Virus record (IMG/VR): IMGVR_UViG_3300023174_000056
Coordinates: 104,145 to 168,144 of that record
Length of the DNA: 64,000 bases
Origin: a virus
Direction: 5' to 3' (one strand)
Positions 12,801 to 51,382 of this stretch are shown piece by piece (within the stretch, counting starts at the first letter, position 1; each line of letters begins with the position of its first letter). The notes beneath the pieces are model-generated. The model saw only the letters and a program-made list of their open reading frames with translations, did not search any database and was not told the DNA's origin. A program made the translations under genes and the position numbers.

Positions 12801-15800
12801 AGGTCTTTCACGGTCTACGGCAGAATCCCTCCAGAATGTTTTTGTTTTTACTATGCTGTCTGTACTACCATTATCTTCATAATTTGGCTTTGTTCTAATG
12901 TCGCCTAAACCAATTTTATCTTTTCTTGGGAAAACAAGCTCAGAATAAGCAATACCAGCCGCCACAGGTTCGTCTATATCTTGTACTTTTGAGGTCAATA
13001 GATTATAAATCTTCTTATAGGAAGTTTTATTTCTATCTGGCTGCACTGGTGCAATTTCATTTTTTAATAATTGATTGGCAATTGTGTCTAAAACGTTTGA
13101 ATATTCTGTTCTTAAAATTGTGTATACATCATTAATTTTTGTTAATTCTGTATTTAATGTTACTCCAAATGTAATTGGTAAATTCCACTCTACAGGTGGT
13201 TCAATATAAGGCTTTGTTATGGATTTTACTTCTAATTTTGAAGGCTTTGTTAAGGGAGGAGACACAGAATCTGCGGCATAGGTTCTTGTTTCCGTTACAA
13301 AGTTTGAAGTATTTTTTTGAATAATAAACTTATTATTTTTAAATAATAAATTGGCAAGTTTATTATTATCTTTTTGTCTTATTTGCTTCCAAGAAGTATA
13401 TCCAAAAGGTCCATCTTTTTTTAATAAATATTTATGTAAACTTCCGTTCTCATTAAAAGAAATAGTTGAAGTATCTTGGTTGACAGATGTTGTAATATTT
13501 GAATTATTTAAACCAACAAAGTCAATAACTTCGCCAGATTCTGTAGATGCAGATAAAACAGCAAGTGTACCAATATCAGTATTTGGATATATCGATGAGT
13601 AGGGACCACTTGAAGTTATTAAGTTTGTAGCAGACGCTGATATCCAAGCATAACCATAATCACTTCTTGGAATTTGATGCGATACGAAGCCGTTATCATA
13701 CTCATTGCTATTTGCTGTTTTTAAATGATTTTTATTAATCTTATGAAACGATGGGTTGTTTGAATCTATTGAAGCCGTTTCTCTCATCCAATCGTTTAAA
13801 GCTTTTCTTACTAATGGATTTCTATAATTAACTGTATTGTAAACCGAAAATGTTTCTGACTCTCTATCTAAAGCACCTCTTGATAGCGACTCAGGACCAC
13901 CTGGGGCTGAGAACCGATTGACCATTATTCCTTCGTATTTCTTACGGGTTGGTAATGGATAATCATAAGCGCCACTAATAAATGCGCTTGCAGTAGCAGA
14001 AGATAGAACACCTTCTACATCGACTAAATGTTTGTTATTGATTTCTCTACCAGCTGCTTGAACTATATTATATTGTTTAGAATAGTTTGCTCTTGGTTGG
14101 TTAAATAGGGAAGTTCTAGCAGATCCAGAGTCTGCAAACAAAGGTCTTAGTTCTACTGAATTTGTTAAACTATTAAGCACATTTACAACTGCAAATGTTT
14201 CGATGCCATCAACCAAAGAGTAAGGCTTATCAGCTGCTAAATCATATAATCTTGCCAAGCGTCTATCATAATATGCAGTTTTTTCATAAACTGTGCTTGT
14301 GGCAGCATTATAAGATTTGTATTTTTTCTTATTTGTTTCATTTACAATCGAATCTAATAATTTTTGCTTATCAGCATCTGCATCGCCTGATGAAACTATT
14401 ACTGGCGAGTTAATTCGTTCGGCTCTTTCTTTCAGCCATAACGCACTATCTTCCTGCGAGAAGCTTGTTAAATCTTCTGGTGCATGGCCTTTCTTCCAAT
14501 TATATTTTAACTCTTTAATGCCTTTTGCTTGTGCATAATCTACCGTAGTCTTTTTTACTTGTGGAAGCTTATAATCGTATTTTGGTCTTTCCAATACGTG
14601 GCTTTCAATCATATTTCTAATATTTTGTGAAAATTCAGAACCAGCTGGTGCTAATTGATATAACATTTCTCCAATAGCTGAATCTATCCATTTATAGAAT
14701 TCAATATATTTCTCTACAGATGGTTCATTTTCTACTTTTTCAAAAAACTTTCTTCTTAGGGCGTTTAAGTCTCTATACTCTTGGCGATATTTATTTATTG
14801 GATCGCCAATAAGATTATTAAAATCAACAATACCAGCAAACATATTTAACATTTCTTCTGATATTGTTTGGTACATACTTTTTTCAAAAGCCCAAAACAA
14901 ACTAACTGGTTTAGTATCTTTTGTAAAAGCGTAGTCCGAATCGCCATAGATATTAATTGTGTCTGATGTGTACAGATTCTCTGGGACTGTTTGCTTTGAG
15001 GCCAAAGTATAGTGTTTTTTAACTATATCTTTTGAATTTGCCAGAGTTTCTGATGCTTTGGCTGCATAAGTTTTTTCTACGTTGTAAGAAAATAAGCTGT
15101 CAAGACCACTTACAGCCCCTTTGGTATCCTTGACTAAAACTTCACCATTGCTATCGCTTGATGTTACTTCATCAAAATCCCAGTTAAAAGCTAAAAGATT
15201 TATTCTTTCGATCTTTTCATCTAAATTTTCATATGGTTTTGCAATAGGATTTTTTACACCAAAATTAGCAGAATCTTTCGCATGTTCTTGAATTTCTTCG
15301 TTAGATAGATAATCATACCAGAATCTGGCGTTTGACACTAAGATATCTGTATAATTCAACACAGAGCCAGTAAAATTGTTTTTTCTAGCGCCTACATAAA
15401 ATTTCTTAAAATCACCATGAATGTTTTGAACCTGCTCAAGAGTCAATGCAGAGCTTGTTACTGTGAATTCATTTTTTATATTACCTTCTACTGTGTTTAC
15501 GCCATAAAATTCTAGATAATAATCTTTCCCAACGGGTAGGGTATTAAAAGCATTAATATCATAATTTAACTTGTCTAAGTTATCATATGGAGTTTTTAGT
15601 CTAACCGCAAAATTCCATTTTTCTCCCTCGTAAATATCAGAAAAATATTGGCTTCTTAGATTATTATCAGCGGTAGCAATACAATTAAATTTAAAATATC
15701 CGCCCCTATCGTCCTTTTTATTTTTAACTAAAAATGTTTCAAAGTTATAGTGCGAAGTGACGATATTAGCTTCATCGGTTAAGTTATTTATAGAATAACC

Positions 15801-17909
15801 ACCAAACAAAGATATATTTGTTTCTTCTGGCACTGAGTAATTTACGTCTGACGTTTCTAGTTTTTTTGGAAAGAAAATTTCTGTTTCAAACGTTAATGGG
15901 ATTAAATAATAAGGTACTTTTGCAGTGTCTAAATTTATTGTAGGTAATAGAGACGAATAAGAAGTTGTTGAATCGGAGGTTTCATTTGTGTTAAAAATAT
16001 TTGTTCCGTAGCTATCTGGGGTTGAGAAGTTAAGAACTTTCTTTTTTTCTACGATACTCTTCTTGTTGTTTTCAATAGTAAATTCTGTATTATTTGCATA
16101 GATATTTAATTTAATCAACTCATCATCTATACCAAATGATCTTATAAGATTTCTAAAGGATTTTTCTGTACCTTTTGTTTTATAAATATATGTTAAGTTA
16201 TTTAAGATATTTTTATAAATTAAATTCTTTAAATCTGTTAATTTTTCTTCAAATAGTCTTTGTTCATCTCTAGATTTTAGATCTTCTATAATTTTAGAAT
16301 CAACAAAAATATCAGGAGCTAGAAACCCGTTAGATTCTAGAATTGAATTAATAAATGGAGCTGGCTTTCTATCTTGCTCGTAATATTCTCCAAAACCAAA
16401 TGTAGGTAATTCTTTTATTTGAAGATAAATTTTATCAAAATAACTTGCAATTATTTGAGTAACTTTTTTTAGTTCTTCTGTCGCTACTTCTTCGTCTTCT
16501 GTGGTTATCCATTCTGGGAGGCTTCGGTAAATTGAATTACCATTCCGCAAATCCCATTCTTGCCCTTTTTCTTTTAATTCTGAACTTTTATTTATAACCA
16601 AATAATGGTCTGGGTATAAGATTGGGTCTTTGACTTCTTGGCTTTCAAATAGACCGCTATCATCAATTGCTGACGATGTTGAGCGGACGCCAGCCGTATA
16701 ATTTACGATAGTTCCGTTAGAAACACGCCCAGAATAATCTAATATTATAGAATCTCTCTGGTCTATAGACTCTTCGTTTAAAACGCCTTCATTAAATCTA
16801 TAGTAAACTCCAAGATCTGTATTTGATAAATCTGTATTTGAACCACCATAAACTCTATCGAATAAATAACGTTTTATATCTTTTTGAGTTTTTTCTGTTT
16901 TCCAAAATCTAAATTCATCAAAACTTCCAGGTGCTGCACCTAAATTATAATTGCCTGCGCTATAGAATCTATAAGATCCTAAGTTTGCTAAGAGATTTTT
17001 ATTATCAAATGATAATGCAGATGCGTACTCGCCGTCTGATTTCCAAACTAATTCGCCGTCAATATATAATTTTGCAATTAATGTTCCATCATTTTCTTCT
17101 CTATTAACAAATGAGAATGCGTAATGATGCCAAGAGTTTAAATCAGTTAAATTATAATCTATAGAGACATTTTGTAGAGCGCCATACCCTGAGAGAGGGT
17201 CTGTATTACCTTTATAAGTTATAGTAAACTTTTTTTGCGATGCTAAAAGACCTATTGACAATCTAGCATAATTTGAAGAATTGGTGTCCTCGATGCCGTT
17301 CCATAAATCAAATAAACCAAAAGAAGAAGAAAGGACATTTTGTGAAAGCCCTTCTTCCAACTTAAACCAAAATTCTACAGTATTTCCTTTTTGTGAACTT
17401 AAACCAAAATTGGCTTCTTGATTATTATTTACGTTATAGATGTTTCCATCTTTATACAAATTTCCTTTTGCATTTGGGCCACTGTATGCCTTAACATATT
17501 GTGCGTTATTGCTTACTAAAACTTTAGTATCACCACTTCCTACTGAAGTGTATGCGGAATCATACGTATCAGAATTTAAAGTAATAAAGCCGGTTGTTTT
17601 TGGATATTCACTATCAAAAACATACTTTTCCAAGTAAGTTAATTTATTTCGCCAGTCAGTTATTTCTGACTCGGAACCATCATATGGATAAGAGCTATAG
17701 ATATGTTGAATCGCTGAAGAATAATATTCATCAGCTAAACCAAATCTTGCAAAAGATTTTGGATCAGAAAAATCTAAATTTGGTATAAATTCTTGGTTCT
17801 CTTCATTCTTTTTTTGAATGAAAGTTCTAGATTCTACTTCATTGTAAATTTCTTCTGGTTTTTCATTTGCTACTTGCTTGGTATCTTTAAATAAGTCTTT
17901 TATGGACAT
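6819..17909 (-). CDS. Giant 3696-aa virion protein with two LamG-like domains and two predicted 7-bladed propellers
   Basis: One uninterrupted frame of 3696 codons. Near residues 175-350 there is a LamG/concanavalin-type sandwich (VEFWFKLEEG, WHHYAFSFVN, FDEFRFWKTEKT), and a second similar one lies near 675-875. Between about 1790 and 2575 a repeat of roughly 55 residues recurs, with cores like GLYVGGKF and IAKWDGTSW. I count seven units, a spacer of about 70 residues, then seven more, which fits two seven-bladed beta-propellers. The last 100 residues are Asn/Gln/Thr/Ala-rich and end in a basic tail. LamG and propeller modules commonly bind glycans or proteins, so a receptor-binding or fibre-anchoring role is the best inference. 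It lies 2 nt after the 475-aa gene in the baseplate block. Confidence 0.88.
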   Translation of the reverse strand: MSIKDLFKDTKQVANEKPEEIYNEVESRTFIQKKNEENQEFIPNLDFSDPKSFARFGLADEYYSSAIQHIYSSYPYDGSESEITDWRNKLTYLEKYVFDSEYPKTTGFITLNSDTYDSAYTSVGSGDTKVLVSNNAQYVKAYSGPNAKGNLYKDGNIYNVNNNQEANFGLSSQKGNTVEFWFKLEEGLSQNVLSSSFGLFDLWNGIEDTNSSNYARLSIGLLASQKKFTITYKGNTDPLSGYGALQNVSIDYNLTDLNSWHHYAFSFVNREENDGTLIAKLYIDGELVWKSDGEYASALSFDNKNLLANLGSYRFYSAGNYNLGAAPGSFDEFRFWKTEKTQKDIKRYLFDRVYGGSNTDLSNTDLGVYYRFNEGVLNEESIDQRDSIILDYSGRVSNGTIVNYTAGVRSTSSAIDDSGLFESQEVKDPILYPDHYLVINKSSELKEKGQEWDLRNGNSIYRSLPEWITTEDEEVATEELKKVTQIIASYFDKIYLQIKELPTFGFGEYYEQDRKPAPFINSILESNGFLAPDIFVDSKIIEDLKSRDEQRLFEEKLTDLKNLIYKNILNNLTYIYKTKGTEKSFRNLIRSFGIDDELIKLNIYANNTEFTIENNKKSIVEKKKVLNFSTPDSYGTNIFNTNETSDSTTSYSSLLPTINLDTAKVPYYLIPLTFETEIFFPKKLETSDVNYSVPEETNISLFGGYSINNLTDEANIVTSHYNFETFLVKNKKDDRGGYFKFNCIATADNNLRSQYFSDIYEGEKWNFAVRLKTPYDNLDKLNYDINAFNTLPVGKDYYLEFYGVNTVEGNIKNEFTVTSSALTLEQVQNIHGDFKKFYVGARKNNFTGSVLNYTDILVSNARFWYDYLSNEEIQEHAKDSANFGVKNPIAKPYENLDEKIERINLLAFNWDFDEVTSSDSNGEVLVKDTKGAVSGLDSLFSYNVEKTYAAKASETLANSKDIVKKHYTLASKQTVPENLYTSDTINIYGDSDYAFTKDTKPVSLFWAFEKSMYQTISEEMLNMFAGIVDFNNLIGDPINKYRQEYRDLNALRRKFFEKVENEPSVEKYIEFYKWIDSAIGEMLYQLAPAGSEFSQNIRNMIESHVLERPKYDYKLPQVKKTTVDYAQAKGIKELKYNWKKGHAPEDLTSFSQEDSALWLKERAERINSPVIVSSGDADADKQKLLDSIVNETNKKKYKSYNAATSTVYEKTAYYDRRLARLYDLAADKPYSLVDGIETFAVVNVLNSLTNSVELRPLFADSGSARTSLFNQPRANYSKQYNIVQAAGREINNKHLVDVEGVLSSATASAFISGAYDYPLPTRKKYEGIMVNRFSAPGGPESLSRGALDRESETFSVYNTVNYRNPLVRKALNDWMRETASIDSNNPSFHKINKNHLKTANSNEYDNGFVSHQIPRSDYGYAWISASATNLITSSGPYSSIYPNTDIGTLAVLSASTESGEVIDFVGLNNSNITTSVNQDTSTISFNENGSLHKYLLKKDGPFGYTSWKQIRQKDNNKLANLLFKNNKFIIQKNTSNFVTETRTYAADSVSPPLTKPSKLEVKSITKPYIEPPVEWNLPITFGVTLNTELTKINDVYTILRTEYSNVLDTIANQLLKNEIAPVQPDRNKTSYKKIYNLLTSKVQDIDEPVAAGIAYSELVFPRKDKIGLGDIRTKPNYEDNGSTDSIVKTKTFWRDSAVDRERPSSTVDMFGFATSSYNTIGSKLFSSYGSYDNFIFDPNNKLKNSIFAQDLQYSESYSLQNNIDNIKLPVNNIFSFNKDTNIVTNFGAYTGIFASNINTSLSTSDGIYIGGDFTNAGGNSKANCILKWDGQRVTTFKNGINVTDAVVYSIVSGADGLYVGGKFSNLDSTTSKNAIIKWDGTDWVSLGTGSSAGSAPLSPNGSKTIVYSMVSSSQGLYVGGVFTDAGGVSNADTIALWNGSTWTNVGTGSPGSPPLADPDWSSLYSSATVFSLASSSYGLYVGGAFAIAASNNLNAKNIAVWNGTNWTAFGNTIGDGVGGNSYYDRVASISSGSDGIYVGGSFSIASPLTGSDSVSNVAKWDTILSKWKGFGSVLSTVTYNALDKSATFVNSGINSLFSSSDGVYIGGLFSKVGNFGNTSYKNIGLAKWDGASWGTIGGSIYLPLNSYSVINTITSGSSGIIFGGSVTQFVPDKLQKIFYEKNTSGYLSNKDILLEKYFDLEQIYYPIKNVAILDTNQYGNGNIYSLYGTTQDYTNNLDRDILCLVSGSDGVYAGLRAVNDYNSIGNLTGFLKKWTKENDWVTIGNITPSTFGDSVFALCSSSAGVYVGGKFTNGGGVSGAKNLVLCKSSGSFQIVGPTNSFNNQISSIISASEGIYVGGKFTNAAGIAAADGIARWDGTSWNSLGTGSFGLGSGVFCMLSSSEGIYVGGGFTDTGISDTANIARWDGVKWNSVGGSSPSRPNNTVITMASASDGLYVYGADGYTIGNAGNAVTSPFIKKWNGTSWSDISKTLNGLIWSFTALNNKIYAAGNFTSASDGTILNNIACWDGTNWNQVGTNGIRNGFNLTTDDEIYSLVSDGNKIFIGGRFAGTRSGPTIKTKDFKYQFEAYSASVDIVMPKPQLIFNNFIPPNANSNLKIAENTYATNTDLTTTVYSSSNNSIFVLNQGYVYETDQKAGRGAFYDSYTKFIEDIKPHSQKYSIVPEYKISNFVESYVKKVNGNFNSILTSDYLTLQGALQESSFNNLSSSTNISQNFDTTFLYDESLPIDNDFKLTINISAIKKLLPYKGFYPSERIEQLSSYFINSFLPLKRTLVSSKNPKEVYYSALSNGTPLNQQVLALLQPLFAPGILLNTIKSSVAVDFPVFITSSVSYDSRTPPVFYGNTGSSLTTNYLFDYINNIQRNYTASNYIDLNPNYRLPFEALIDFDTKIPDDLKVSANNLYYLNPTHYTTDTITGSDFNNIAYPSYNMGTGSLKSFTFLDANYKLAMHNFLAEIPNFFLKGKLTSITSKPENEFAAAIPGTRYYMDVVLEKDGAYKEFITDPYYENLKSDPAKHSEGTFMIPSPDSLYGPPVRYWDSAGSASLLYQKGPYNLYSKLLDTPSYAPYVPPYYYGKAIARISFLASDTKTRAYSLQEIQDSINIEFLNSEAEALFKQRSNFLLNDFSSSYADNYKNSPAYKSMMNLSSSINLTLKSEDLDLSVDVATSKADKGTKSFVPKFKWVIQTKFETPSINFNDADLTDNIGLQFIDGDKSIPGTVKGVYKNLFKGIWTTYGSPVQEGSGIKLYLQESPTGPNTGSLIQMCGFKTDVKPTLGVLGSEKTVSEALVLIPYTYNKNHVDGKKKINQEFAETLPEILGENNILKPNQRGRGPYYFKINRDILKETFGVSFGKESKISFEEIKTIIDNNSSLKNTSIVDTVRQMTRFVLPPHLDWLRNKNIDPFVMYVIPFDIELQQDSNYTDLSDIWQGVMPSKSMESHIENKNISHPFNSDELFHGKRLPKDVKFKVFKIKQKANVNYYELVEDSKESALKRFKFKFTSSEAVPEYSYNWPYDFCSVIEMANATVELKNGKTDINLKSKTAGETFVTQRRVTSNADTSTPVVTNAQETNNTNIGTTQLTTTIANPTLVQTQFVPQINTVSALNGSPTSSLQAINVNSLTPVAQAQIQNINATNLNVTATTSQLINQQNSALKTINSSTAQAAVKNIKASFSRKIKK

Positions 17910-21555: not shown

Positions 21556-24500
21556 CTAACAAACATCATCATCGTTTGTTGTACTATCAGTTTCCATACC
21601 AAAATCATCTTCTGCCAATGAAATTGCAAAAGCCGCTTGTCCTTGTGGTGTGATAGGAGGAAGTAGAGCTGCTGACAATCCTAAACTTGGTATATACATA
21701 GGAAGGTTTTTAACGGAGATTTGTACTCCAGCAGCTTCTGCTTGCGCTACTCCAAGGCCGTAAGCCGTTGATACGGCAGAAGCAATAGAGATGTTTGGAT
21801 CAGTTATTTGAGCAAAACTCCTAACAATTGTTTTTGGTAATGCAGCAAGCACTTTTAATTTAGATATACTTGCCGTAACTCCATTATCTTCTATTTTTTT
21901 CGTATAATCACTGGCTAGATCTATAATATCTATTATAGACTTAATTTCTTGTTTAGAAGCATCAAAAGAGGAATTTAAAACGTCAAGGCTGTTTAATGAC
22001 AATAGCATTGTTGAACAATATCCAGAAAACATTTCGTCAAATGGATAATATAATTTAAAGTAGGTATAGAATAAATCTTTAAATGTAAGATCTTTTTTAT
22101 AAGACTCATTAGATGTTATAGCGAATGTATATAAACTTTCAATATCGCTAGTAAAAAAGTCTGTATATTTTTTGGTTTCTTTTGCAACCATTGAAAAATA
22201 TGAACGTCCATTGTTAGTAATAATGCAAAATGGAGGGTTTGTTGCAGCCAGTTTATCTAAATCTACATCTACTTTTTCTATTAATTGCTGTTTTTCTTTA
22301 ATACGATCAGAAAAAGTTTTTATCTGAGTAACGACTTCTAACCCTTCTTTAGTTACAAGTGATAAATTGTCGTCATTATCACTCTCAATTAAAAGATCAT
22401 TTATCCTATCGTAGCTGGGCTTTAACGAGTACTCATTATTTTCATAAAATTTATCAACATTAGAAAAATAATTACTATTACTATCTCCATATTCTTTCAA
22501 TAAATTAATAATATAATTTAAGATGTTTTTTAGGTCTTCTTCGGTCATGCTATCGGAGGAGACAAGAGCCGCTAAAAATATTCTTACTTGATCTAGCGAC
22601 CATCCCGGTGGCTTTATTTTATTATCATACTCTTTTAATAAAATTTCTAATGACGGTTTTGATATCAAGAAATCAAATATATTTTTTATTCTAGCCATAA
22701 TGTCATTATTAGTTATTAAAGAAATTTCTTTATTTAAAGAATTTTTTACGTTTGAAATGCTTGCTGGATCTGGTATTAATGTGATATTATCATATGCATA
22801 ATCTACAAATGATTTATAATTCTTCTCTTGTATTATTTCTTCCGATTTAGTTATTTTTACTATATTTTTATTTTTTTCATTTTTATAAATTTCGTGAATT
22901 TGAGTGCTGACCGACGAGAAATCTTTCTTAAAATGCATTTTAAACGCATTTAAAATATCTGCTTTTGAATTTAATAAGTCTTCTATTTTTATATCTTTTA
23001 GATTTTGTTCTCTCTTATACTTCTCCATCATTATTTTATTAATTTTAGATGCATAAGAGGAGCCAAAAAGTCTCTTTATGTCTTTCATTATAAAATCATA
23101 GCAAATCACATAAAAAACTTCTGAGTCTAGTAGCGATAAGTAATTGCCGAATGGTAGCAATTTTAAATTAAAATCAATAGAATAAATTCTAAAAAATAAT
23201 GCCAATCCTGCTTCATAATTTGCTGTATCCGCAGCAGATGGAACCTTCTTTTTACCATCTAGTGACATTATAGGAGGTAAACAAGCTGATTTAGCAGCGG
23301 CCTTTTGAACACTATTTTTTATTTCATCTAGATTAATCAGTCTTTTATCTTTAACACCACACTTTTTTTCTTTTTTAGTTAGCAGCGGATTGAGATCTAG
23401 TGATAAAGCTTTTTGTATATTTGGTGTTTGTAAATTTCCATTTTTATCTGTTTTATATTCAAAAAGAAAATTATTAAAAAATTGCTTTTGAAATAAGTAA
23501 TTTACAATCTTTTTGTCGTAAGCATCCTGCTTTGACTGGATTTCTGTATTTATGCCGCCAATTAAAGAAAGTAAATTTTGATTAGCTTGTACCGAATAAG
23601 AACTAGTAGAAAAATTATAATTATTTGAAAGACTTTTATTTAAGTTTATTATTCTATTTTCCTGATCGGATATTGTGCTAATTCTTGTTGCATTTAAGCT
23701 GTTATACGAAAGATCAAGACCAGTACCGCTTATTGAAGAAGTTGAAGCATTTATGCGTATTTTTGTATTTATATTAATATTGTTAGTTTCAACCAATAAT
23801 TTTGAAAATTGGCTATCTGGGTCTTCGTTAATTAATTTTGCATTTTCTTCTGTTGCAAATAAGTATTCAGGTATTTTAAAGTTAAGATCGATAACATCAG
23901 GAAATGGAGAGCTAACTATTCCTCTGAAACTGCTGGTTCTTTTCACAGTTGTTGGGTACACTACTGAAGCGTAAAATGTGTTTGCGCTTCCAGAGGTTAG
24001 GAAGAGTTTTTTAATAACATTCCCGCTTTTATCTTGTATTGTAATAGATGAATTTCTAAACCAATTTTTAATATCTTGGTTATAGGACTCATCAAACTTA
24101 GAATATAATTTATCTAAAATATCCTCATTTGAGATTTTGAAAGCTTCAGGAATTCCAATTTTATCAGAAATTCCAGGTGTTATTGTTCCGTCTTCATTTT
24201 GAACACAATTGATTGGCTTTAATTCAATTGATGTCTTATTTAACATATTTAAAGCTAAAGACAATTTTGAAATAGTATTTTTTAAATTCTGGTCTTTTCT
24301 CTCAACTTCAACCTGTGCCTGTTCTTCAGTTAAGCCTTTTTCTTTTAAGGCTTTTTTTAAATTTTCATTAAAAGTATTGTTATCTATGCACAATATATCT
24401 GGATCATTTGATAATATTTGCTCTGTGAGAAAATTTAATTTTTCTTGATTCATTAATGGCGCAAATCTTGCAAAAAATTCCTTAACTTTATTATCGGCTA

Positions 24501-27192
24501 GGATCGTCACATCGTAATTGTTAAATTTTTTGGTTGAGCTGCCTAATTTTTTAGGAATATATTTGATACCCTGTGGGGTGCCTTGTTTTGATTCAAGTAA
24601 ATTAATTTCATTTTTTACTATTCTAATAATTTCGTTATCAGCGGTTCCTAAAAATAACTTAATAAGTTCTGATTTCGTCAAAGATTTTGATACAGAATCT
24701 AAAATTTTCTTAACTTCGTCTTTTGATTCTTCCTTATTTTCTTCGTCGTTTCTAACAATCCCGGCGTTTTCCAACGCATCGCCAGTTTGTCCAAGAGCCT
24801 GTCCAGAATTGCTGTAGTCGCCTAATAAATCTTCTGGCGAAGTATCCCCTACTGTATCTGGGTCTATGCTATCCTTACAGCTGCTAATAACATCGTTCAT
24901 CATTCTTAGGAGCGTTAGAATAGCATCTGTTCTCTCTTCTGCCAATGCTTCTCCAAAAGAGTTATAATAAACTGTCATCATCCCAGGTATATTTGGGAAT
25001 GTTGGTATTTTTATAACTGGAAAACTTGGAATTGGTAGTTGTGGTATCTGGCACGCAAGTGGGACATCGTTTACAAGGAAGTTTTTTATCGCATTCAACA
25101 AAAATCTTGTTGCATCTCTTAATTGTTGGTTTGCTATACACTTTGTAACTTCATCTATGATTAATTCCCATTGGATTGTTTTTGGATCTATAAATTCTTC
25201 CCAATTTTGTTTTGTAATTTCTCCAAGCTGTTTACCAAGTTCTTCCCATTCTTTTTCACTAAAAGTTTGTTGAAAATTTTTTATACTTTCGCCAGATACA
25301 ATATTATTTATAAATTCATTTGTGCTTTGCTTTAGTTGATCTTTTGTATTGTCAACGTAAGTTCGTAAACACTCTAGCTCTCTTTGTTCAAAACGATCAG
25401 CAGTACCTGGTGCGTATTTTATTTGCGCCAATTCGCCTGGAATTACGTAATCAGATAGAAATGATGTTATTGATTTTTTACCGTCTTCTTTTGCTAGTGC
25501 ATTTGTATTTGCTAGTAAAAATGCAAAAGTAGAATCTGTTATTGGTTCATTTATTAATAAACTGTTTACTCCATCTAATTCAATTATATTTTTTCCACCG
25601 TTATATGAAATATAAATTGCTTTTACGACCATTATGTCATTTATGGATATAAACTTAAAAGTTAATGCTGTATTTAATGTAAGACCATTTTCGTCATATA
25701 ATCCAAGAAGTTTCCCAGCGTTTTGATTTAAAAGACCAATAATTGTATTTGTAAAATTGTTATATGAATCTTCATATAAAGAAAGATCTATAAAAACCTC
25801 TGGGGGTGGGTCTTTTTCTAATTCTCCTCTTAATTTTGATGCGTAGTCTTTAAGAGTCTTATAGACGTTATCAAAAGTTTTTAATAAAACTAAATCACCA
25901 TTTGGCTGGGCTGAGTAGGGTATGAAAACAAAACGGTTTACTTGATTAGGATTTTCTTTTGTTGGATCATTTTCGTCTAAAGAAGGCAGTTCTTTAAAAG
26001 TAGGTATATCTGATGGTGATATGTAATCACGTAATGATGGCTCACCATTAATAGCAGAATCCAATCCATCAGAAATCGCTGCTGAATAATCATAATTTGC
26101 AGCATTTGATGATCCCGCAGATAAAACAGAAGAAAGATTTGGTGCTAATTTATTAAAATTAAAAATTTCAGTATTTGAAATTGTTTCCGATGCTCTATTA
26201 ACAAGGTCTGGGAGATCTAAAAGTGACTGACCAGCCGCCTGAAGATAGTTGTCGGTCTTACAAACGGCTTCTACATTTCTATATGGCAATACTACAAGTA
26301 TCGCTGGCGGTTGGTTTCTTCTTGGATTTATAACATAACTTTCTATTTTTGCAAAACAATAATATTGTTCTTCAAAATTTCTTCCATCTTTTGTTTGTAA
26401 TTTATTTACATCTTTTAAAATAGCTTTTATTGCGCTTGAAAAAGCACTTTTAAATGAATCAGTAATTATTTCTTCAGTTAGATTATTAAAATCTACTATA
26501 TTAAGTTGCGTTATGACATAGTATGATGCAATTTCATCGCTATAATTAACTTTATCAAAATCATCCGATGGGAACACAGTAAAATTAACGCTTTTTGCAT
26601 ATAATTTGGGATTTATCGTTGGAGATTTTGCCACATCAGAATAATCTATCAATCTTCTACTATCTGGGTAGGTTCCTTCTGCTATATCGCTTTTTAAGCA
26701 AAAACCAGTTTGTTCTTTAATGCCGGAATCGGTAAGAACTTGGAATAAAACTTTACACCAAAGAAGGTCTTTTCCTATACCAGTTTCAATAACTCTAATT
26801 TTTAGTGCAGTTCTAAAGCTTACAACATTAAAAAAAGAATTTTGTGTTTTTACAATAGAAATACTGCTAACATTTTCTTTTGAATTTTTTACATAATCAT
26901 AAATAAAAGTTGGCGATGAAAAATCTCTTAATGCATTAATATATTCGCCAATTTGAGCGTCAGTTGCATTTAATGCTACAGAGAAGCGATCAACAAGATT
27001 AAAAAAGTCTCCGTCGCCTCTGGTATCAAATCCCTTATAAGAAGAAATATGCTGAATTATCGTTACTTCATCAGATCCCTCTGTTACTATCAGATACTTT
27101 TCTGGCGTTAACGCAAAAACTGGTGCTAACTGATAATTTTCTTGTCCATAAGAAATATCTTCTATAAGTTTTTGAAAGTCGATGTCTGCCAT
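21556..27192 (-). CDS. Large baseplate/tail-region protein, 1878 aa
   Basis: A single frame of 1878 residues, predominantly alpha-helical and charged (Lys/Glu/Asn-rich segments around 900-1500), with short Pro-rich patches near residue 720 and an Ala/Pro-rich region shortly before an acidic C-terminus that ends DDDVC. No lysozyme, peptidase or fibre motif was seen. It lies between the hub-like proteins (313 aa and 419 aa) and gp25. Its size and place suggest a baseplate scaffold, hub or wedge component particular to this phage group. Function not assigned. Confidence 0.8.
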   Translation of the reverse strand: MADIDFQKLIEDISYGQENYQLAPVFALTPEKYLIVTEGSDEVTIIQHISSYKGFDTRGDGDFFNLVDRFSVALNATDAQIGEYINALRDFSSPTFIYDYVKNSKENVSSISIVKTQNSFFNVVSFRTALKIRVIETGIGKDLLWCKVLFQVLTDSGIKEQTGFCLKSDIAEGTYPDSRRLIDYSDVAKSPTINPKLYAKSVNFTVFPSDDFDKVNYSDEIASYYVITQLNIVDFNNLTEEIITDSFKSAFSSAIKAILKDVNKLQTKDGRNFEEQYYCFAKIESYVINPRRNQPPAILVVLPYRNVEAVCKTDNYLQAAGQSLLDLPDLVNRASETISNTEIFNFNKLAPNLSSVLSAGSSNAANYDYSAAISDGLDSAINGEPSLRDYISPSDIPTFKELPSLDENDPTKENPNQVNRFVFIPYSAQPNGDLVLLKTFDNVYKTLKDYASKLRGELEKDPPPEVFIDLSLYEDSYNNFTNTIIGLLNQNAGKLLGLYDENGLTLNTALTFKFISINDIMVVKAIYISYNGGKNIIELDGVNSLLINEPITDSTFAFLLANTNALAKEDGKKSITSFLSDYVIPGELAQIKYAPGTADRFEQRELECLRTYVDNTKDQLKQSTNEFINNIVSGESIKNFQQTFSEKEWEELGKQLGEITKQNWEEFIDPKTIQWELIIDEVTKCIANQQLRDATRFLLNAIKNFLVNDVPLACQIPQLPIPSFPVIKIPTFPNIPGMMTVYYNSFGEALAEERTDAILTLLRMMNDVISSCKDSIDPDTVGDTSPEDLLGDYSNSGQALGQTGDALENAGIVRNDEENKEESKDEVKKILDSVSKSLTKSELIKLFLGTADNEIIRIVKNEINLLESKQGTPQGIKYIPKKLGSSTKKFNNYDVTILADNKVKEFFARFAPLMNQEKLNFLTEQILSNDPDILCIDNNTFNENLKKALKEKGLTEEQAQVEVERKDQNLKNTISKLSLALNMLNKTSIELKPINCVQNEDGTITPGISDKIGIPEAFKISNEDILDKLYSKFDESYNQDIKNWFRNSSITIQDKSGNVIKKLFLTSGSANTFYASVVYPTTVKRTSSFRGIVSSPFPDVIDLNFKIPEYLFATEENAKLINEDPDSQFSKLLVETNNININTKIRINASTSSISGTGLDLSYNSLNATRISTISDQENRIINLNKSLSNNYNFSTSSYSVQANQNLLSLIGGINTEIQSKQDAYDKKIVNYLFQKQFFNNFLFEYKTDKNGNLQTPNIQKALSLDLNPLLTKKEKKCGVKDKRLINLDEIKNSVQKAAAKSACLPPIMSLDGKKKVPSAADTANYEAGLALFFRIYSIDFNLKLLPFGNYLSLLDSEVFYVICYDFIMKDIKRLFGSSYASKINKIMMEKYKREQNLKDIKIEDLLNSKADILNAFKMHFKKDFSSVSTQIHEIYKNEKNKNIVKITKSEEIIQEKNYKSFVDYAYDNITLIPDPASISNVKNSLNKEISLITNNDIMARIKNIFDFLISKPSLEILLKEYDNKIKPPGWSLDQVRIFLAALVSSDSMTEEDLKNILNYIINLLKEYGDSNSNYFSNVDKFYENNEYSLKPSYDRINDLLIESDNDDNLSLVTKEGLEVVTQIKTFSDRIKEKQQLIEKVDVDLDKLAATNPPFCIITNNGRSYFSMVAKETKKYTDFFTSDIESLYTFAITSNESYKKDLTFKDLFYTYFKLYYPFDEMFSGYCSTMLLSLNSLDVLNSSFDASKQEIKSIIDIIDLASDYTKKIEDNGVTASISKLKVLAALPKTIVRSFAQITDPNISIASAVSTAYGLGVAQAEAAGVQISVKNLPMYIPSLGLSAALLPPITPQGQAAFAISLAEDDFGMETDSTTNDDDVC

Positions 27193-27194
27193 GA

Positions 27195-28136
27195 TTAATT
27201 TGTGTTGTTAAATCTACTAGCTATATATAGCTCGCCAGTTTTTTCTAAATATGTTTTTTTAAACACGCCAAGAGATTTTCTAATTTGATCTAATTTTATA
27301 TTTGAAACTTGACTAAAAATATAACTAGCTGTTAGTGATTTAGTTGGTAAATCTGTGTCTAATGGTAATGTAGGACTGCCAGGGACTCCTGTTGCGTGTT
27401 GATGGGTTGCAAGTGATGAATCAACTTTTTCTTGATAATGAATTATTTCTAGAATTGAATCAACTGTTAATTCCATTAAATTTATCATTTCTGCAAAAGC
27501 TTTATTAGTATTTATTCCTTTTAACATAGGTTGCAAATCGCTATCATCATTACCAGCAATAAGATCAATACCTTTAATTTTAATAATTTTTTGTCTTTTG
27601 GAATCTTCAGAGTATCTTCGTGTTACAAGCTTTATGCCTCTTTCGCCAACAATTCTAACTGCATCTGCTTTAATACCAATTGCACTTTGTTTAATAGATT
27701 TACCGATTGTTCCATCTTTTAAATTTAAATAATCATCTATATCTGCGGTCTGCGATAAGTAAATATATGAAGAATCTAACATAAAATCTGGATTTGACAC
27801 GGAGGGATTTTTAGCATCTTCTTTATATAATCCGATTCCAGCCCCAAAATGTCCAGCTACAATATGAACCATCCCAGATTTTGGATGTCCTTTGCCTCCA
27901 TACCCAGAAGTTATTTTATCTTTTCTATCTTTACCCAAAATTATATGAGAGTTATTATAGCCACTATAAATTTTTTCAGCTACAGAATTAATTCTTTTTG
28001 GGAACGCCTCTCTTTTTACGCTGTCACCAACGCCATTTTGAGATAATTTTGTGCCTTCAGAAGAGTTTTCTTGCGCTATCTTATTTTCTTTTGAAAGCCC
28101 TTCACTATTTAAATAATTTCCTGCTGCCATTTTCAT
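27195..28136 (-). CDS. Putative baseplate hub/puncturing-type protein, 313 aa
   Basis: This protein holds repeated short beta segments (IKGIDLIAGND, IKADAVRIVGERGIKLVTRR) and, near residue 245, THQHATGVPGSPT. A His-x-His stretch followed by PG.PT is frequent in phage spike and hub proteins, where such histidines can bind a metal. Two Met codons lie at the start (28136 and 28130). The gene abuts the M15-peptidase gene upstream and the 1878-aa gene downstream by 1-2 nt. A hub or spike role is likely but not proven. Confidence 0.75.
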   Translation of the reverse strand: MKMAAGNYLNSEGLSKENKIAQENSSEGTKLSQNGVGDSVKREAFPKRINSVAEKIYSGYNNSHIILGKDRKDKITSGYGGKGHPKSGMVHIVAGHFGAGIGLYKEDAKNPSVSNPDFMLDSSYIYLSQTADIDDYLNLKDGTIGKSIKQSAIGIKADAVRIVGERGIKLVTRRYSEDSKRQKIIKIKGIDLIAGNDDSDLQPMLKGINTNKAFAEMINLMELTVDSILEIIHYQEKVDSSLATHQHATGVPGSPTLPLDTDLPTKSLTASYIFSQVSNIKLDQIRKSLGVFKKTYLEKTGELYIASRFNNTN

Positions 28137-28137
28137 T

Positions 28138-29397
28138 TTATGCTAACCTTGTAAATTGTACACCACTTAACTGTCTGTATAGCTCTATCCCATTTCTATT
28201 ATAGGAAGCATAGGTTTTTTTACCAGAAGAATCGGAATTCCAATGTCCGTAGCTTAGAACTTCTAAGCGGTTTCTTGTGAAATTTGGTGTTTTTGGATGT
28301 GCTATAGAAATATGAAACCAAAAACTTCCAGGACCAGAGCTTTCAAAAATTAATTGATCGTATTGATTTATTACTTTTTTTGATTTTATTTCATCAAAAA
28401 TGTCTAATAATCTCGTATCATTAACGTTTACAAAGCTTAGGTCTGCCGCTGTTCCAAGTCTGTGCTGACTATTTGGCGCACCGCCTACTGCATTATTTAA
28501 TTCTTGCCCTCTAAAAACACTATTTATAACAAAAGAACCGACGCCATAATAATCTACTAATTTATCTAAAACAGTTCTAGCTAAAAAGGCCAATCTTTCA
28601 ATTTCGTCTGGGCTTGGCTGATTGCTTATTCCTCTTTGTTTTGCTGTTTCAGAATATGTTAGCTGCGATAAGGTAAAATATTTTGAGATTAATTCATCGC
28701 TGCTTGGTGGGTTATATAGGCTTAATCTTTCTTCTGGGGCGGTGCATACACTTGTTGAAAAATTAGGTACTGGTGCTTCGTCTTGGTTTATAGATTCTTG
28801 CGACGAATTTATTGAATCAGAATTAGGCTTGATATTAGAATTATCAGAGCATGGAGGCTCCGTAAAAGTGTCTTTCGCTGTTTTCTTTTCTTTAGAATTA
28901 TCTTCGATAATTATAGGAGGATAATCATCGTATTTTGCAGAAATACTTGCTTCTTCTTTTGTACTATTTGCATATTCAAATTCAACAATTGTGCCAGTTG
29001 GTAGTTTATCTTTTATTTTAGAACTACACCTGACCATCGTAGTGCTTTTTAAAATATCAGATTTTGTTTGAAACTTTGTAGCTATTGAAGCGTGCGCCAA
29101 ATCAATCGGTAAAACAAGGTACTCTATAAAAATATTGTTTGTCGCTGATGTGGTTGACGCAAGCAATTTGTTGATATTTGTTCTTGGAGACGTTGTTTCT
29201 ATGACATCCATGATGACGCCATAGTTTCTATAATTTTCAATCGTATTAAGCTGTTGCATAAGTTGCGACAGCATTTTTCTAGAAACAACTTGAGGATTTG
29301 TTGACATTTCCTCAATTGTTGGAGTATATTTAAATTTTGGACCTTGTTCGGTTGTTGTCTGGATACGGCCAGAGCCATAAAGAGCCAAATTAGGCAT
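28138..29397 (-). CDS. Tail hub protein with C-terminal M15-type D-Ala peptidase domain
   Basis: A 419-aa protein. Residues 1-150 look like a beta-rich hub or OB-type domain. A Ser/Pro/Glu-rich linker lies around 165-235. The C-terminal part holds the zinc peptidase signature of the M15 family: HRLGTAAD near residue 312 (HxxGxAxD) and WFHIS near 360. Such enzymes cleave peptidoglycan cross-links. In a baseplate cluster this is most simply a virion-associated enzyme that opens the cell wall during infection, the counterpart of the lysozyme domain in T4 gp5. The gene ends 1 nt from the next one. Confidence 0.87.
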   Translation of the reverse strand: MPNLALYGSGRIQTTTEQGPKFKYTPTIEEMSTNPQVVSRKMLSQLMQQLNTIENYRNYGVIMDVIETTSPRTNINKLLASTTSATNNIFIEYLVLPIDLAHASIATKFQTKSDILKSTTMVRCSSKIKDKLPTGTIVEFEYANSTKEEASISAKYDDYPPIIIEDNSKEKKTAKDTFTEPPCSDNSNIKPNSDSINSSQESINQDEAPVPNFSTSVCTAPEERLSLYNPPSSDELISKYFTLSQLTYSETAKQRGISNQPSPDEIERLAFLARTVLDKLVDYYGVGSFVINSVFRGQELNNAVGGAPNSQHRLGTAADLSFVNVNDTRLLDIFDEIKSKKVINQYDQLIFESSGPGSFWFHISIAHPKTPNFTRNRLEVLSYGHWNSDSSGKKTYASYNRNGIELYRQLSGVQFTRLA

Positions 29398-46794: not shown

Positions 46795-47349
46795 CTAAAA
46801 ATTTAAATTATTATTGGTATATTTAGTGACAAAATCGTTCATTATAATGCTACCAGCAACGGCAGCATTTAAAGAGCGTACAGAGCCATACTGCTGAATA
46901 AACACAAATCTATCACAAATTTCTATCGCTTCTTGTGTAAGTCCGACGCCTTCTTCGCCAAGAAGAAAAAGGACAGGCTTAGTATATTCAATCCTATCCA
47001 AACGGATAGCACCAGCAATAGTATTTTCAACACCAACAATTTCGTATTTTTCCTTCAACTCTAAAAGTTGTTCGTGTTTTTTTAGATGTATTACATCCGT
47101 ATAATGGTGTGTGCCAACTGTGCCTCTACGGTCATAGTGTTTATTGCCAATGTAATAAACTTCTTTCGCATTAAAACCATTTGCTGATCTTATCACAGAT
47201 GATAAATTAAAATCACCAAGAAGATTCTCCATCGCAACTGCGTAAGGAAAGGCTTTAGACTGGAGATCTTTTTTAATTAATTCTGTTGTCCACTTAGTCA
47301 AACGATCATACTTGTACTTGTCTGAAATGTTACGGTTGTCTGTGTCCAT
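46795..47349 (-). CDS. SpoU/TrmH-family RNA 2'-O-methyltransferase, 184 aa
   Basis: Three SpoU motifs are present: NLSSVIRSANGF (motif 1 near residue 50), LFLLGEEGVGLT (motif 2 near 131) and VRSLNAAVAGSIIM (motif 3 near 160), making the trefoil-knotted SAM site. It methylates a ribose in tRNA or rRNA. The family contains TrmH, TrmL, RlmB and the thiostrepton-resistance enzyme TsnR acting on A1067 of 23S rRNA. The gene has its own promoter with the predicted +1 on the A of the ATG. The substrate cannot be told from the sequence. Confidence 0.87.
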   Translation of the reverse strand: MDTDNRNISDKYKYDRLTKWTTELIKKDLQSKAFPYAVAMENLLGDFNLSSVIRSANGFNAKEVYYIGNKHYDRRGTVGTHHYTDVIHLKKHEQLLELKEKYEIVGVENTIAGAIRLDRIEYTKPVLFLLGEEGVGLTQEAIEICDRFVFIQQYGSVRSLNAAVAGSIIMNDFVTKYTNNNLNF

Positions 47350-48749: not shown

Positions 48750-48823
48750 TGGAGCAGCTAGTCGGATTCGAACCGACGAAACGAACTTGGAAGGATCGTG
48801 TGTTACCACTACACCATAGCTGC
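48750..48823 (-). tRNA. tRNA-Gly (anticodon UCC)
   Basis: Acceptor GCAGCTA/TAGCTGC, D arm GTGT-AGTGGTA-ACAC, anticodon loop CTTCCAA giving UCC, T arm GTCGG-TTCGAAT-CCGAC, discriminator U and encoded CCA. It reads GGA codons, which are favoured in AT-rich genomes. One mismatch lies in the anticodon stem. 74 nt. Confidence 0.93.
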
Positions 48824-49074: not shown

Positions 49075-49686
49075 CTATTCAATAATTTTGTCTACAAGAC
49101 CATACTTGAGACAAGTTTTAGCATCAAAATATATATCACGTTTCAAGATATCTTTTAAGGTGTTTTTTGGAATTTTTGTATATTGACCATAAATTTCATA
49201 AATTTTATCCATAAAAACATTGCAATTTTGCATATCATCTTTCATGTCTTCAAATTTACCCCACATACCACCTGATAATTGGTGAATTAGCATAAAAGAA
49301 TTTTTTGTGATACTTCTCTTTGGAGCCACAACACTTATAATAGTTCCAGCGCTGGCAGCACTGCCTTCAACGATAGAATGCACTGGGGCGTTGCTATTAC
49401 GAATTACATCAACAGCAGCAAAACAATCAAGTAGAGAACCGCCTGGACTATTGATGTAAAGTTTAATGTCTGGCGGTGTGGGCCATTCAAAATGATTTTG
49501 AACAAAAATCAATTCTTTGCTTACACTACGCAATTGTTTATTAAGGTTTAAAATTGATTTCTTAGTAACAGAAGAGTAAAAATAGATTGAATTATCTACT
49601 GTTTCAATTTCATTTAAATCTTCATCATCTTCGTCTGCGGACGGTTTTGTGGCTAAATAAAAAGCATTTTTTGGTAATTTAGTCAT
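49075..49686 (-). CDS. ClpP-like serine peptidase, 203 aa
   Basis: ClpP fold with all catalytic residues: INSPGGSLLDCFAAVD, GSAASAGT (Ser near residue 110), FMLIHQLSGGMWG (His near 135) and LKYGLVDKI (Asp near 199). The N-terminal 40 residues, rich in Asp/Glu (ADEDDEDLNEIE), replace the usual propeptide. Possible roles are a ClpXP-type chamber with host ClpX or ClpA, or prohead maturation; head genes are not in view here, but a tmRNA gene is less than 1 kb away. It has its own promoter. Confidence 0.87.
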   Translation of the reverse strand: MTKLPKNAFYLATKPSADEDDEDLNEIETVDNSIYFYSSVTKKSILNLNKQLRSVSKELIFVQNHFEWPTPPDIKLYINSPGGSLLDCFAAVDVIRNSNAPVHSIVEGSAASAGTIISVVAPKRSITKNSFMLIHQLSGGMWGKFEDMKDDMQNCNVFMDKIYEIYGQYTKIPKNTLKDILKRDIYFDAKTCLKYGLVDKIIE

Positions 49687-49700
49687 GGCAAGGCTCCAAT

Positions 49701-49967
49701 CTATGCCTTCATCTTACCCTTCTTATTTTTGCTTGTCAAGAGCTTTTCTTCAATTTCCTCAAGAGCAGCTTTTAATGATGGATCTACACGGCTTTTTACA
49801 ACATACTGTTGACCACCTACACCTGATCGCTTAATTTTAACTTGATAAGTACCAGTCTTGTCTTGCGCTTTTACAGACTTCCGAAACGTATCCGCTTCTT
49901 CAAACGAAGCAAAATAACGTTCATTTTTCCAAGGCTCACCTTGAACTTGCTTTGTTGTCTCTTCCAT
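49701..49967 (-). CDS. Conserved-looking small protein, 88 aa
   Basis: Begun at the second ATG (49967, MEETTKQVQGEPWKNERYFA), which has AAGGAGG at proper distance; the first ATG at 49988 would place that ribosome site inside the gene. The central ERYFASFEEADTFRKSVK and GTYQVKIKRSG... QQYVVKSR look like a small alpha/beta domain, and the end is Lys-rich. It is not SmpB by sequence. Expressed from its own promoter between the ncRNA and clpP-like genes. Confidence 0.78.
   Translation of the reverse strand: MEETTKQVQGEPWKNERYFASFEEADTFRKSVKAQDKTGTYQVKIKRSGVGGQQYVVKSRVDPSLKAALEEIEEKLLTSKNKKGKMKA
49711..49739 (-). promoter_or_regulatory. sigma70 promoter for the ClpP-like gene
   Basis: Minus strand TTGACA (49739-49734), 17-nt spacer, TAAGAT (49716-49711). 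Leader of about 18 nt carrying TTGGAG before the ATG at 49686. It lies within the 3' end of the 88-aa gene. Confidence 0.78.
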
Positions 49968-50007: not shown

Positions 50008-50036
50008 ACTCTATCAGACCTAAAATTTCTTGTAAA
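50008..50036 (-). promoter_or_regulatory. sigma70-like promoter for the 88-aa gene
   Basis: Minus strand TTTACA (50036-50031), 17-nt spacer, TAGAGT (50013-50008). It begins inside the T-rich tail of the ncRNA terminator, so termination and re-initiation are packed together. Confidence 0.68.
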
Positions 50037-50042
50037 GAACAA

Positions 50043-50060
50043 AATAACAGGCGTGTTATT
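50043..50060 (-). terminator. Hairpin terminator of the GAC-like RNA
   Basis: AATAACA-CGCC-TGTTATT on the minus strand gives a 7-bp stem followed by TTGTTCTTT. AT-rich and modest in strength, but placed correctly at the end of the RNA. Confidence 0.6.
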
Positions 50061-50306
50061 ACACTAAAGCGGAATCTCATTGCATCGCAGAATTCACCTT
50101 TTTATCGGTTACTCCACGTCTTCTGGATCTCCACGCCGATACGTTTCTCCTATTCCCTAACCACCCCGACCTATGATAGATTGCGCCTTACCTAATACGA
50201 GGATCTTATGGAGATCGCTCAAATATTACACTTAGTTATTTAAGGGTTTCGTATAATATTATTCGGGCTTTTAGCATAGACGCCTTTTCACAAGATTTCT
50301 ATCTGC

Positions 50307-50364
50307 ACTAGTGGATTTTGCCGCACTCTTTAAAAGATGGCTACCTTTAAGCCAACTTCCCGAT
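50307..50364 (-). other. GTPase-associated-centre-like domain (helices 42-44 pattern)
   Basis: The runs GUUGGCUUA, GUAGCCAUC and UUUAAAGAGUGCG correspond in order and spacing to 23S rRNA. Outer helix pairs A-U, U-G, G-U and G-C are kept, as is the G-A closing mismatch; one C-A mismatch is seen. The hairpin that in rRNA holds A1095 reads GCGGCAAAAUCC and is not conserved. Confidence 0.72.
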
Positions 50365-50383
50365 TATTTTGTTCGTAGATACA

Positions 50384-50426
50384 AGTATGCCACAGAGACT
50401 CGGTGTTGTCAAGTCTTCTGTGGCAT
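50384..50426 (-). promoter_or_regulatory. Promoter embedded in an inverted repeat (GAC-like RNA promoter)
   Basis: Minus strand TTGACA (50412-50407), 17-nt spacer, CATACT (50389-50384) with an upstream TG. A 9-bp inverted repeat ATGCCACAG / CTGTGGCAT (50387-50395 and 50418-50426) surrounds the -35 box, and its right arm meets the -10 box. Inside, AGACT/AGTCT extends the hairpin. It begins 5 nt after the tmRNA CCA end. Confidence 0.78.
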
Positions 50427-50431
50427 TTAGT

Positions 50432-50721
50432 TGGTGGAGGATTTGGGTATCGAACCCAAGTCTTACAGTCTTTTGTACAAAGTCATTCACAGGATTAGTA
50501 GAGTCGTCTACACGTATTACATTTTATTACAGTCTATTACAATTTGCAACTTTCTGTTTCTAGGCAGTTGCCGCCCAAGAATTACGCTGCTAGAGCGTAG
50601 GATTCAAACTCAACGTCTTCGTTGGCTTTTATTGTTTTGTAACATTTATTAGAGTCTGTTGTGTTACGCAGACTTCCCGCACTTTATATTTCTCTACCGT
50701 AATCGAATCCAGTTATCCCCC
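50432..50721 (-). ncRNA. ssrA: tmRNA (ssrA), tag ANEDVEFESYALAA
   Basis: A complete one-piece tmRNA of 290 nt. 5' GGGGGAT pairs with 3' ATCCTCC (with the G3-U pair for alanyl-tRNA synthetase), followed by A and encoded CCA. The 5' part has the hallmark CTGGATTCGA. The T arm is TTGGG-TTCGATA-CCCAA, and TTACGGT pairs with ACTGTAA as the long P2 helix. A hairpin or pseudoknot (AGTCTG/CAGACT) precedes the tag frame, which starts at GCC (50626) and ends TAA (50582). The tag ends in YALAA like bacterial ssrA tags. Shorter than the 363 nt of E. coli. It rescues stalled ribosomes and marks products for ClpXP-type proteases. Confidence 0.95.
50582..50626 (-). other. Tag-peptide reading frame inside the tmRNA
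   Basis: Fourteen codons plus TAA: ANEDVEFESYALAA. A resume GCC (Ala) codon follows an A-rich stretch (AACAATAAAA), as in known tmRNAs. The last residues ALAA are the standard ClpX/ClpA degradation signal; the acidic middle (EDVEFE) is longer than in E. coli. Confidence 0.95.
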
Positions 50722-50738: not shown

Positions 50739-50780
50739 AAGATACCACAGGTGCAAGCTCTTGTCAAGACACCTGTGGTA
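50739..50780 (-). promoter_or_regulatory. Promoter/terminator composite upstream of tmRNA
   Basis: Minus strand TTGACA (50767-50762), 17-nt spacer, TATCTT (50744-50739). An 11-bp perfect inverted repeat TACCACAGGTG / CACCTGTGGTA (50743-50753, 50770-50780) encloses the -35 box, and its arm abuts the -10. Read as RNA from the endolysin gene, the same hairpin is followed by ATCTTTTTATTT, a Rho-independent terminator. It thus ends one transcript and starts the tmRNA. Confidence 0.83.
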
Positions 50781-50803: not shown

Positions 50804-51382
50804 TTAAACGTTTCCTTCTAAAATCTTAAGTGCTTTTTCTGAATAAGCTACACGTTGATCGTGATGTAGTTTTCCAGTTCCATTAACTCTTAATGTAATT
50901 GTATCTAGATCCCATTTATCAGCAGCTTCATCTAATTTACGATCTTTGAAGTATTGGCAAGCAATCTTGACTGAAACTTCTGGAGTGCAAGCTAATTCTG
51001 GTTTGTTGGCTAAATCTAAGCCCAGCTTCTTGCCGTATAGCTCATAGTTAGCACGTCCAGTTAACTGGAGAACGCCACGACCAATAAACTTAGGACCGTC
51101 ACCAGCTTGGGTGTTACCTAAATTTTTACGACCTTCGTAAAGCGTTCCTGTCGGTTCAGCAGCGTCTTTTGGGTCTTTCTTGTTGTATTTAGATGGTAGT
51201 TCTTTATCGTAGCGCAATTCGCCACTTTCAACACCAATTTGTCCTAATAGTGCTGCAATACGTTTTGGAGTATTGAATCCCATTTCTTCACAGGCTTTTC
51301 CAAAAATTGGACCATAGGCTTTGATCTTGTCTGCTGGTGCTTTTGGAAAAATTGCTTTTAGTTTTTCTTCAGTTAATATCAT
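50804..51382 (-). CDS. Endolysin, glycoside hydrolase family 19 type, 192 aa
   Basis: Lysozyme-like GH19 domain over the whole length: IAALLGQIGVESGELRY with the catalytic Glu, GDGPKFIGRGVLQLTGRANY near residue 107, and the closing VNGTGKLHHDQRVAY. GH19 phage enzymes cleave peptidoglycan glycan strands at lysis. No signal peptide, so a holin or host route is required; none is recognised next to it. Followed by the promoter/terminator hairpin. Confidence 0.9.
   Translation of the reverse strand: MILTEEKLKAIFPKAPADKIKAYGPIFGKACEEMGFNTPKRIAALLGQIGVESGELRYDKELPSKYNKKDPKDAAEPTGTLYEGRKNLGNTQAGDGPKFIGRGVLQLTGRANYELYGKKLGLDLANKPELACTPEVSVKIACQYFKDRKLDEAADKWDLDTITLRVNGTGKLHHDQRVAYSEKALKILEGNV

Follow-up and report, generated by a model that had tools for sequence, protein, structure and literature searches.

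The analysis confirms the presence, in an uncultured myovirus, of a complete and structurally intact phage-encoded tmRNA with its own tag, the gene for which lies 746 bases upstream of a phage clpP gene. The stretch analysed, here called the window, makes up the final 64 kb of an IMG/VR record of 168,144 bases; as the record encodes a large terminase, a portal protein, a major head protein and a tail sheath, it is viral and not a fragment of host DNA. The phage tmRNA probably adds to or replaces host trans-translation during infection, acting with a ClpX-type unfoldase of the host and, perhaps, with a Clp protease that includes or is aided by the phage ClpP. As a tmRNA, the gene is an ordinary new member of a well-known kind, since phage tmRNAs are already known; what was not found described is the repeated order of tmRNA and clpP without SmpB or ClpX. 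A search of the open literature, exclusive of subscription papers and preprints, yielded no description of a phage tmRNA adjoining clpP, and the repeated pairing in uncultured phages appears to be undescribed so far.

The phage tmRNA gene

ARAGORN, run on the window, called a tmRNA gene with the tag ANEDVEFESYALAA (Table 1), and a cmscan search against all Rfam families returned a match to RF00023 with exactly the same coordinates (73.9 bits against a gathering score of 47, E = 7.5e-27), covering model positions 1-374 without truncation. The permuted tmRNA family scored 32.3 bits on this gene, below its gathering score, and the window tmRNA is therefore of the one-piece type. The original prediction, made from the letters alone, had claimed a complete phage tmRNA with its own tag sequence and had proposed an Infernal comparison with Rfam as a check; both calls agree with it. 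All of the parts it had listed were located, these being the acceptor stem GGGGGAU/AUCCUCC with G3-U, the encoded CCA, the GGAUUCGA D-like region, the T loop with the sequence UUCGAUA and a P2a helix of 7 bp. Two of its remarks were not sustained: the rarity of phage tmRNAs was overstated, as one published survey (PMC9004378) puts their frequency at 2.3% of phage genomes, and the long acidic middle of the tag, presented as a special trait, is unremarkable among related phage tags.

Table 1. Positions in the window of the tmRNA gene and the features surrounding it
Feature	Position	Strand	Evidence
GH19-type endolysin, directly upstream of tmRNA	50804..51382	-	phrog_181, E 4.9e-49; PF00182
Promoter-like site of tmRNA: TTGACA (50767-50762), 17 nt, TATCTT (50744-50739), in 11-bp inverted repeat TACCACAGGTG/CACCTGTGGTA	50739..50780	-	consensus match only
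One-piece tmRNA gene (ssrA), 290 nt, CCA encoded	50432..50721	-	ARAGORN; RF00023; pair counts across the five-tmRNA alignment
Tag frame, GCC resume codon to UAA, ANEDVEFESYALAA	50582..50626	-	ARAGORN; coding part 96-140 of gene
Second promoter-like site, between tmRNA and RNA candidate: TTGACA-17-CATACT in 10-bp inverted repeat	50384..50426	-	consensus match only
Unclassified noncoding RNA candidate, about 348 nt, 12-bp closing stem, between tmRNA and small ORF	50029..50376	-	conserved in L010-L012
Small ORF between RNA candidate and clpP, 88 aa if begun at the likely ATG that follows AGGAGGG; frame open from 49988	49701..49967	-	conserved in relatives, tblastn to L010-L012
ClpP-family serine peptidase, 203 aa, triad S112-H135-D184	49075..49686	-	PF00574, E 5.4e-30; triad invariant in 40 relatives; model matches bacterial ClpP
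tRNA-Gly(tcc) behind clpP	48750..48823	-	ARAGORN; RF00005, 65.2 bits

The acceptor stem formed 7/7 pairs, and its G3-U was kept in all five of the related tmRNAs aligned (that of the window and those of the phage loci L010, L011, L028 and L029). P2 (7 + 8 + 5 bp) and PK1 (6 + 6 bp) both carried compensatory changes; the remaining elements were a stop-codon hairpin of 6 bp, PK2 (4 + 6 bp) and a T-arm of 5 bp (5/5 pairs). In these elements, and in the full-length match, the LAA end of the tag and the CCA, the window tmRNA is the same as the bacterial one-piece tmRNA (RF00023). It differs from the latter in being shorter, in having a single weak hairpin beyond PK2 where longer tmRNAs have further pseudoknots, and in being encoded by a phage in which no SmpB was found.

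Standard pairs made up 96.6% of the 323 pair cells in the five-tmRNA alignment, and two-sided changes were present in 21 of the 65 pairs, compensatory changes being distributed across P1, P2, PK1 and the T-arm. Shuffled alignments gave a mean of 7.2 two-sided changes, none of 500 shuffles reaching the 21 observed, and sliding the pairing partners gave 0-4. The base at position -4 of the resume codon was A in all five; the base at the same position in E. coli, A86, is needed for activity, which is abolished by mutation to a pyrimidine (PMC2481249). The window tmRNA shows no sign of decay and looks like an intact RNA under selection. The 22 tags located near related ClpPs all ended in LAA, which is what ClpX reads. 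In two phage tmRNAs (L056:7984-8320 and L072:5774-6108) VRLAA ends (ANNNNHFDSVRLAA) replaced YALAA or VALAA.

The adjoining clpP gene and recurrence of the gene order

Downstream of the tmRNA are, in order, a noncoding stretch, the small ORF, the ClpP-family peptidase gene and tRNA-Gly, and the phage synteny endolysin - tmRNA - small ORF - clpP is conserved. The small ORF had no PHROG or Pfam match. A PhoH gene lies in the same stretch, together with tRNAs and the endolysin, and nine tRNAs lie near one end of the record in addition to the tRNA-Gly within the window. No near match to the 19-kb stretch around the tmRNA was present among 50,697 phage records, in which matches to the tmRNA were found in Streptomyces phages only (77-79% over one third of the gene).

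From its sequence, the phage ClpP is predicted to be catalytically intact; Ser112, His135 and Asp184 were unchanged across 40 divergent relatives, and the predicted model (pLDDT 83.9) matched the bacterial ClpP fold. Fold and Ser-His-Asp triad are common to the phage and bacterial proteins, but the phage ClpP scored far below the NCBIfam cut-off for the cellular ClpP equivalog (TIGR00493, 74.8 against 308.6 bits) and no partner unfoldase was found in the phage.

A scan of viral sequences seeded with ClpP gave 80 loci, and a tmRNA was found nearby in 22 of these. It was upstream of clpP in all 22, on the same strand in 17 and on the other strand in five, at a spacing of 0.3-7.6 kb; the upstream and downstream sequence available at the 80 loci was nearly equal. 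A full tmRNA was present in 13 of the 19 records longer than 100 kb, compared with the 2.3% of phage genomes in the published survey (PMC9004378). In whole records the distances between tmRNA and clpP were mostly small, with two pairs lying as far as 71 and 167 kb apart when the record is read as linear; the associated Fisher P value of 4.7e-5 overstates the evidence, because these phages share gene order. When the presence of a nearby tmRNA was traced on the ClpP tree, 16 changes were needed, at least 10 of them forced by well-supported branches, some of the absences being unsure owing to contig ends. Across the tree, the tmRNA was gained or lost while its side of clpP stayed constant.

The reverse scan, seeded by a pattern of the tmRNA only, gave at least 53 loci with an ARAGORN tmRNA. 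Among the matches listed, ClpP was encoded in the available stretch at at least six loci, and in 6/6 of those listed the tmRNA lay upstream of clpP in the same orientation, at a distance of between 58 bases and 2.4 kb. Four of the six (L127, L157, L173 and L201) had permuted tmRNAs and came from another phage lineage. The ClpPs of these four were mutually related and ∼33% identical to the window ClpP, so that the independent tmRNA-clpP events number perhaps two or three rather than six. Near one of the four (L173), reading of the sequences also pointed to a GH19-like endolysin and a PhoH-like gene. A gapped tmRNA pattern, probably too strict, gave no match over the viral collection. Common descent accounts for part of the tmRNA-clpP pairing, the gene order of the clade being shared (portal to clpP 67-87 kb in 11 of 13 records).

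Proposed role and alternative explanations

Proposals for the role of phage tmRNAs have been that they keep hijacked ribosomes running, and that they serve selective protein degradation. In the scheme favoured here, host alanyl-tRNA synthetase would charge the phage tmRNA via G3-U, and host SmpB and EF-Tu would bring it to ribosomes that have stalled on broken mRNAs. Such a ribosome would shift to the GCC resume codon, add (A)ANEDVEFESYALAA and then be freed, and the LAA end would direct the tagged product to an unfoldase of the ClpX type in the host. A likely destination would be a Clp protease containing, or supplemented by, the phage ClpP, because an intact ClpP adjoins the tmRNA and the order recurs across phages. 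Functional trans-translation by the phage tmRNA is very likely, with charging, rescue and tagging presumably proceeding via host factors, and a putative role in ribosome rescue after host mRNA decay and in the tagging of truncated proteins is reasonable. Whether the phage ClpP would be the partner of the tmRNA, or a neighbour through coincidence of location, is about evenly balanced.

No PF01668 (SmpB) match was found in the 168-kb record or in 19 large relatives, records which may be incomplete, and no self-contained trans-translation system, with SmpB encoded alongside tmRNA, was found in the records searched. No Clp-type AAA+ unfoldase was found in this record, and the one clear match among the 19 relatives was in a record without tmRNA. 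These data suggest that both SmpB and the unfoldase would have to come from the host. The recurring order of tmRNA and clpP without SmpB or ClpX provides a model that can be tested: the tag, and perhaps the peptidase, would be given by the phage, and SmpB and the unfoldase by the host.

It is possible, but doubtful, that the two genes form a paired tag-and-protease module that recurs in large myophages. The tmRNA would mark stalled chains and the phage ClpP, working on host ClpX, would destroy them, so that host quality-control proteolysis is redirected; such a module would have been assembled more than once, with both one-piece and permuted tmRNAs. Counting against the main explanation are the 33 related ClpP loci without a tmRNA found nearby, the five tmRNAs on the opposite strand, the shared gene order, the loss of the tmRNA in L012 and the failure to find a phage unfoldase.

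The most serious alternative, which we hold to be tentative, is that the tmRNA does nothing but free ribosomes stalled on mRNAs that nucleases, either of the phage or of host defence, have cleaved, with the tagged chains going to host proteases, and that clpP is a takeover gene with a separate task in an accessory-rich stretch (lysis genes, PhoH, tRNAs). The sharing of this stretch with tRNAs, the endolysin and PhoH is consistent with this, as is the frequent occurrence of clpP without tmRNA; in Kyanovirus BUCT-ZZ01, for example, PhoH lies near a ClpP relative and there is no tmRNA. The near-identical loci L011 and L012 differ in the presence of the tmRNA. L012 has no tmRNA between endolysin and clpP, yet clpP is kept and only CTCCACCA of the tmRNA 3' end is left (L012:9220-9240); the two loci are 96% identical from behind the tmRNA through clpP, and L012 represents a tmRNA loss caught by sequence. 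At L028 (8857-9460) an HNH endonuclease gene comes directly after the tmRNA, and beyond the HNH gene a tmRNA 3' end (ACTCCCCGCATCTCCACCA) is present a second time, as if the mobile gene had inserted at the end of the tmRNA and restored it. Together, the loss in L012 and the arrangement in L028 show that the phage can do without the tmRNA gene and that mobile elements target it.

Other phages with a complete tmRNA include the Streptomyces phage Karimac, the OM43 phage Melnitz and huge phages (Al-Shayeb et al. 2020). The Karimac tmRNA is surrounded by tRNAs, and no clpP is annotated within about 6 kb of it, which again fits a role in rescue only. That of Melnitz differs in being two-piece and under a glutamine riboswitch, and ClpP is absent from the text of the Melnitz paper. 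SmpB is reported in some of the huge phages, whereas none was found in the 20 records here. What argues against rescue as the sole function, and for a destination that includes the phage ClpP, is the fixed order, with the tmRNA upstream in 22/22 loci and, among the matches listed, in 6/6, across lineages and tmRNA types.

The best PHROG and NCBIfam models for the phage ClpP were ClpP-related head maturation ones, and a head maturation protease unrelated to tagged proteins would explain this; we consider it unlikely. The score against the NCBIfam model NF045542 was 97.1 bits, short of its cut-off of 120. Head proteases usually adjoin the portal and major head protein genes, whereas in each of the 13 clade records tested 67-150 kb separated clpP from the portal gene, a distance which makes a role in head maturation improbable. 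Passive cargo, that is a tmRNA copy acquired at a host ssrA integration site, is very improbable and was already disfavoured by the covariation, for although integration at ssrA is common and prophages may contain fragments of it (PMC9004378), the gene here is complete and sits in conserved phage synteny, and its compensatory changes, seen between diverged phages, show that it has long been maintained.

Promoter-like sites, a second RNA candidate and other genes

The promoter that had been named for the tmRNA, TTGACA-17-TATCTT at 50767-50739, proved to be a good match (10/12), as a match of sequence to consensus only. Transcription of the phage tmRNA is presumed. A second site of the same design was found in the window, both consisting of TTGACA and a 17-nt spacer within an inverted repeat of 10-11 bp with CCACAG/CTGTGG arms; one precedes the tmRNA and the other the noncoding RNA candidate. 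No further TTGACA-17-N6 site of this design was found elsewhere in the 168-kb record, and the two are possibly a shared operator.

The RNA candidate had no match near significance to any Rfam family, and no group I intron, RNase P RNA or 6S RNA was recognised in it by eye. Six two-sided pair changes were seen in the comparison across L010-L012, and the folding z-scores were modest (-1.9 and -2.2). Four copies are known (window, L010, L011 and L012), and a covariance model of the 3' core found only these four in 1.36 Mb; L029 was without the candidate. The copies of the window and L010 were 97.4% identical while the surrounding alignments were 73-81% identical, which suggests horizontal exchange or strong constraint. 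Two further candidates were rejected, a motif match in L026, which lay only within a protein gene, and the only match in a scan of genome contigs, from Neobacillus, which was a chance match inside a reading frame.

A GroEL-family chaperonin is encoded outside the window (record 27760-29340; L005:7760-9340) and was present in 9 of 15 records checked, chaperonin, ClpP and tmRNA thus being carried together by these phages. A SpoU-family RNA methylase (PF00588, E 1.8e-24) is encoded at window positions 46795-47349, a few kb from the tmRNA, and adds to the genes of this region that are related to RNA. Also outside the window, a protein of 1042 aa (record 88805-91933; L008:8805-11933) began with a match to an SbcD-like profile, the remainder matching an SbcC-like one, and is possibly a fused SbcD-SbcC nuclease. 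Two ORFs of great length, at window positions 6819-17909 (3696 aa) and 21556-27192 (1878 aa), possibly encode tail or fibre proteins.
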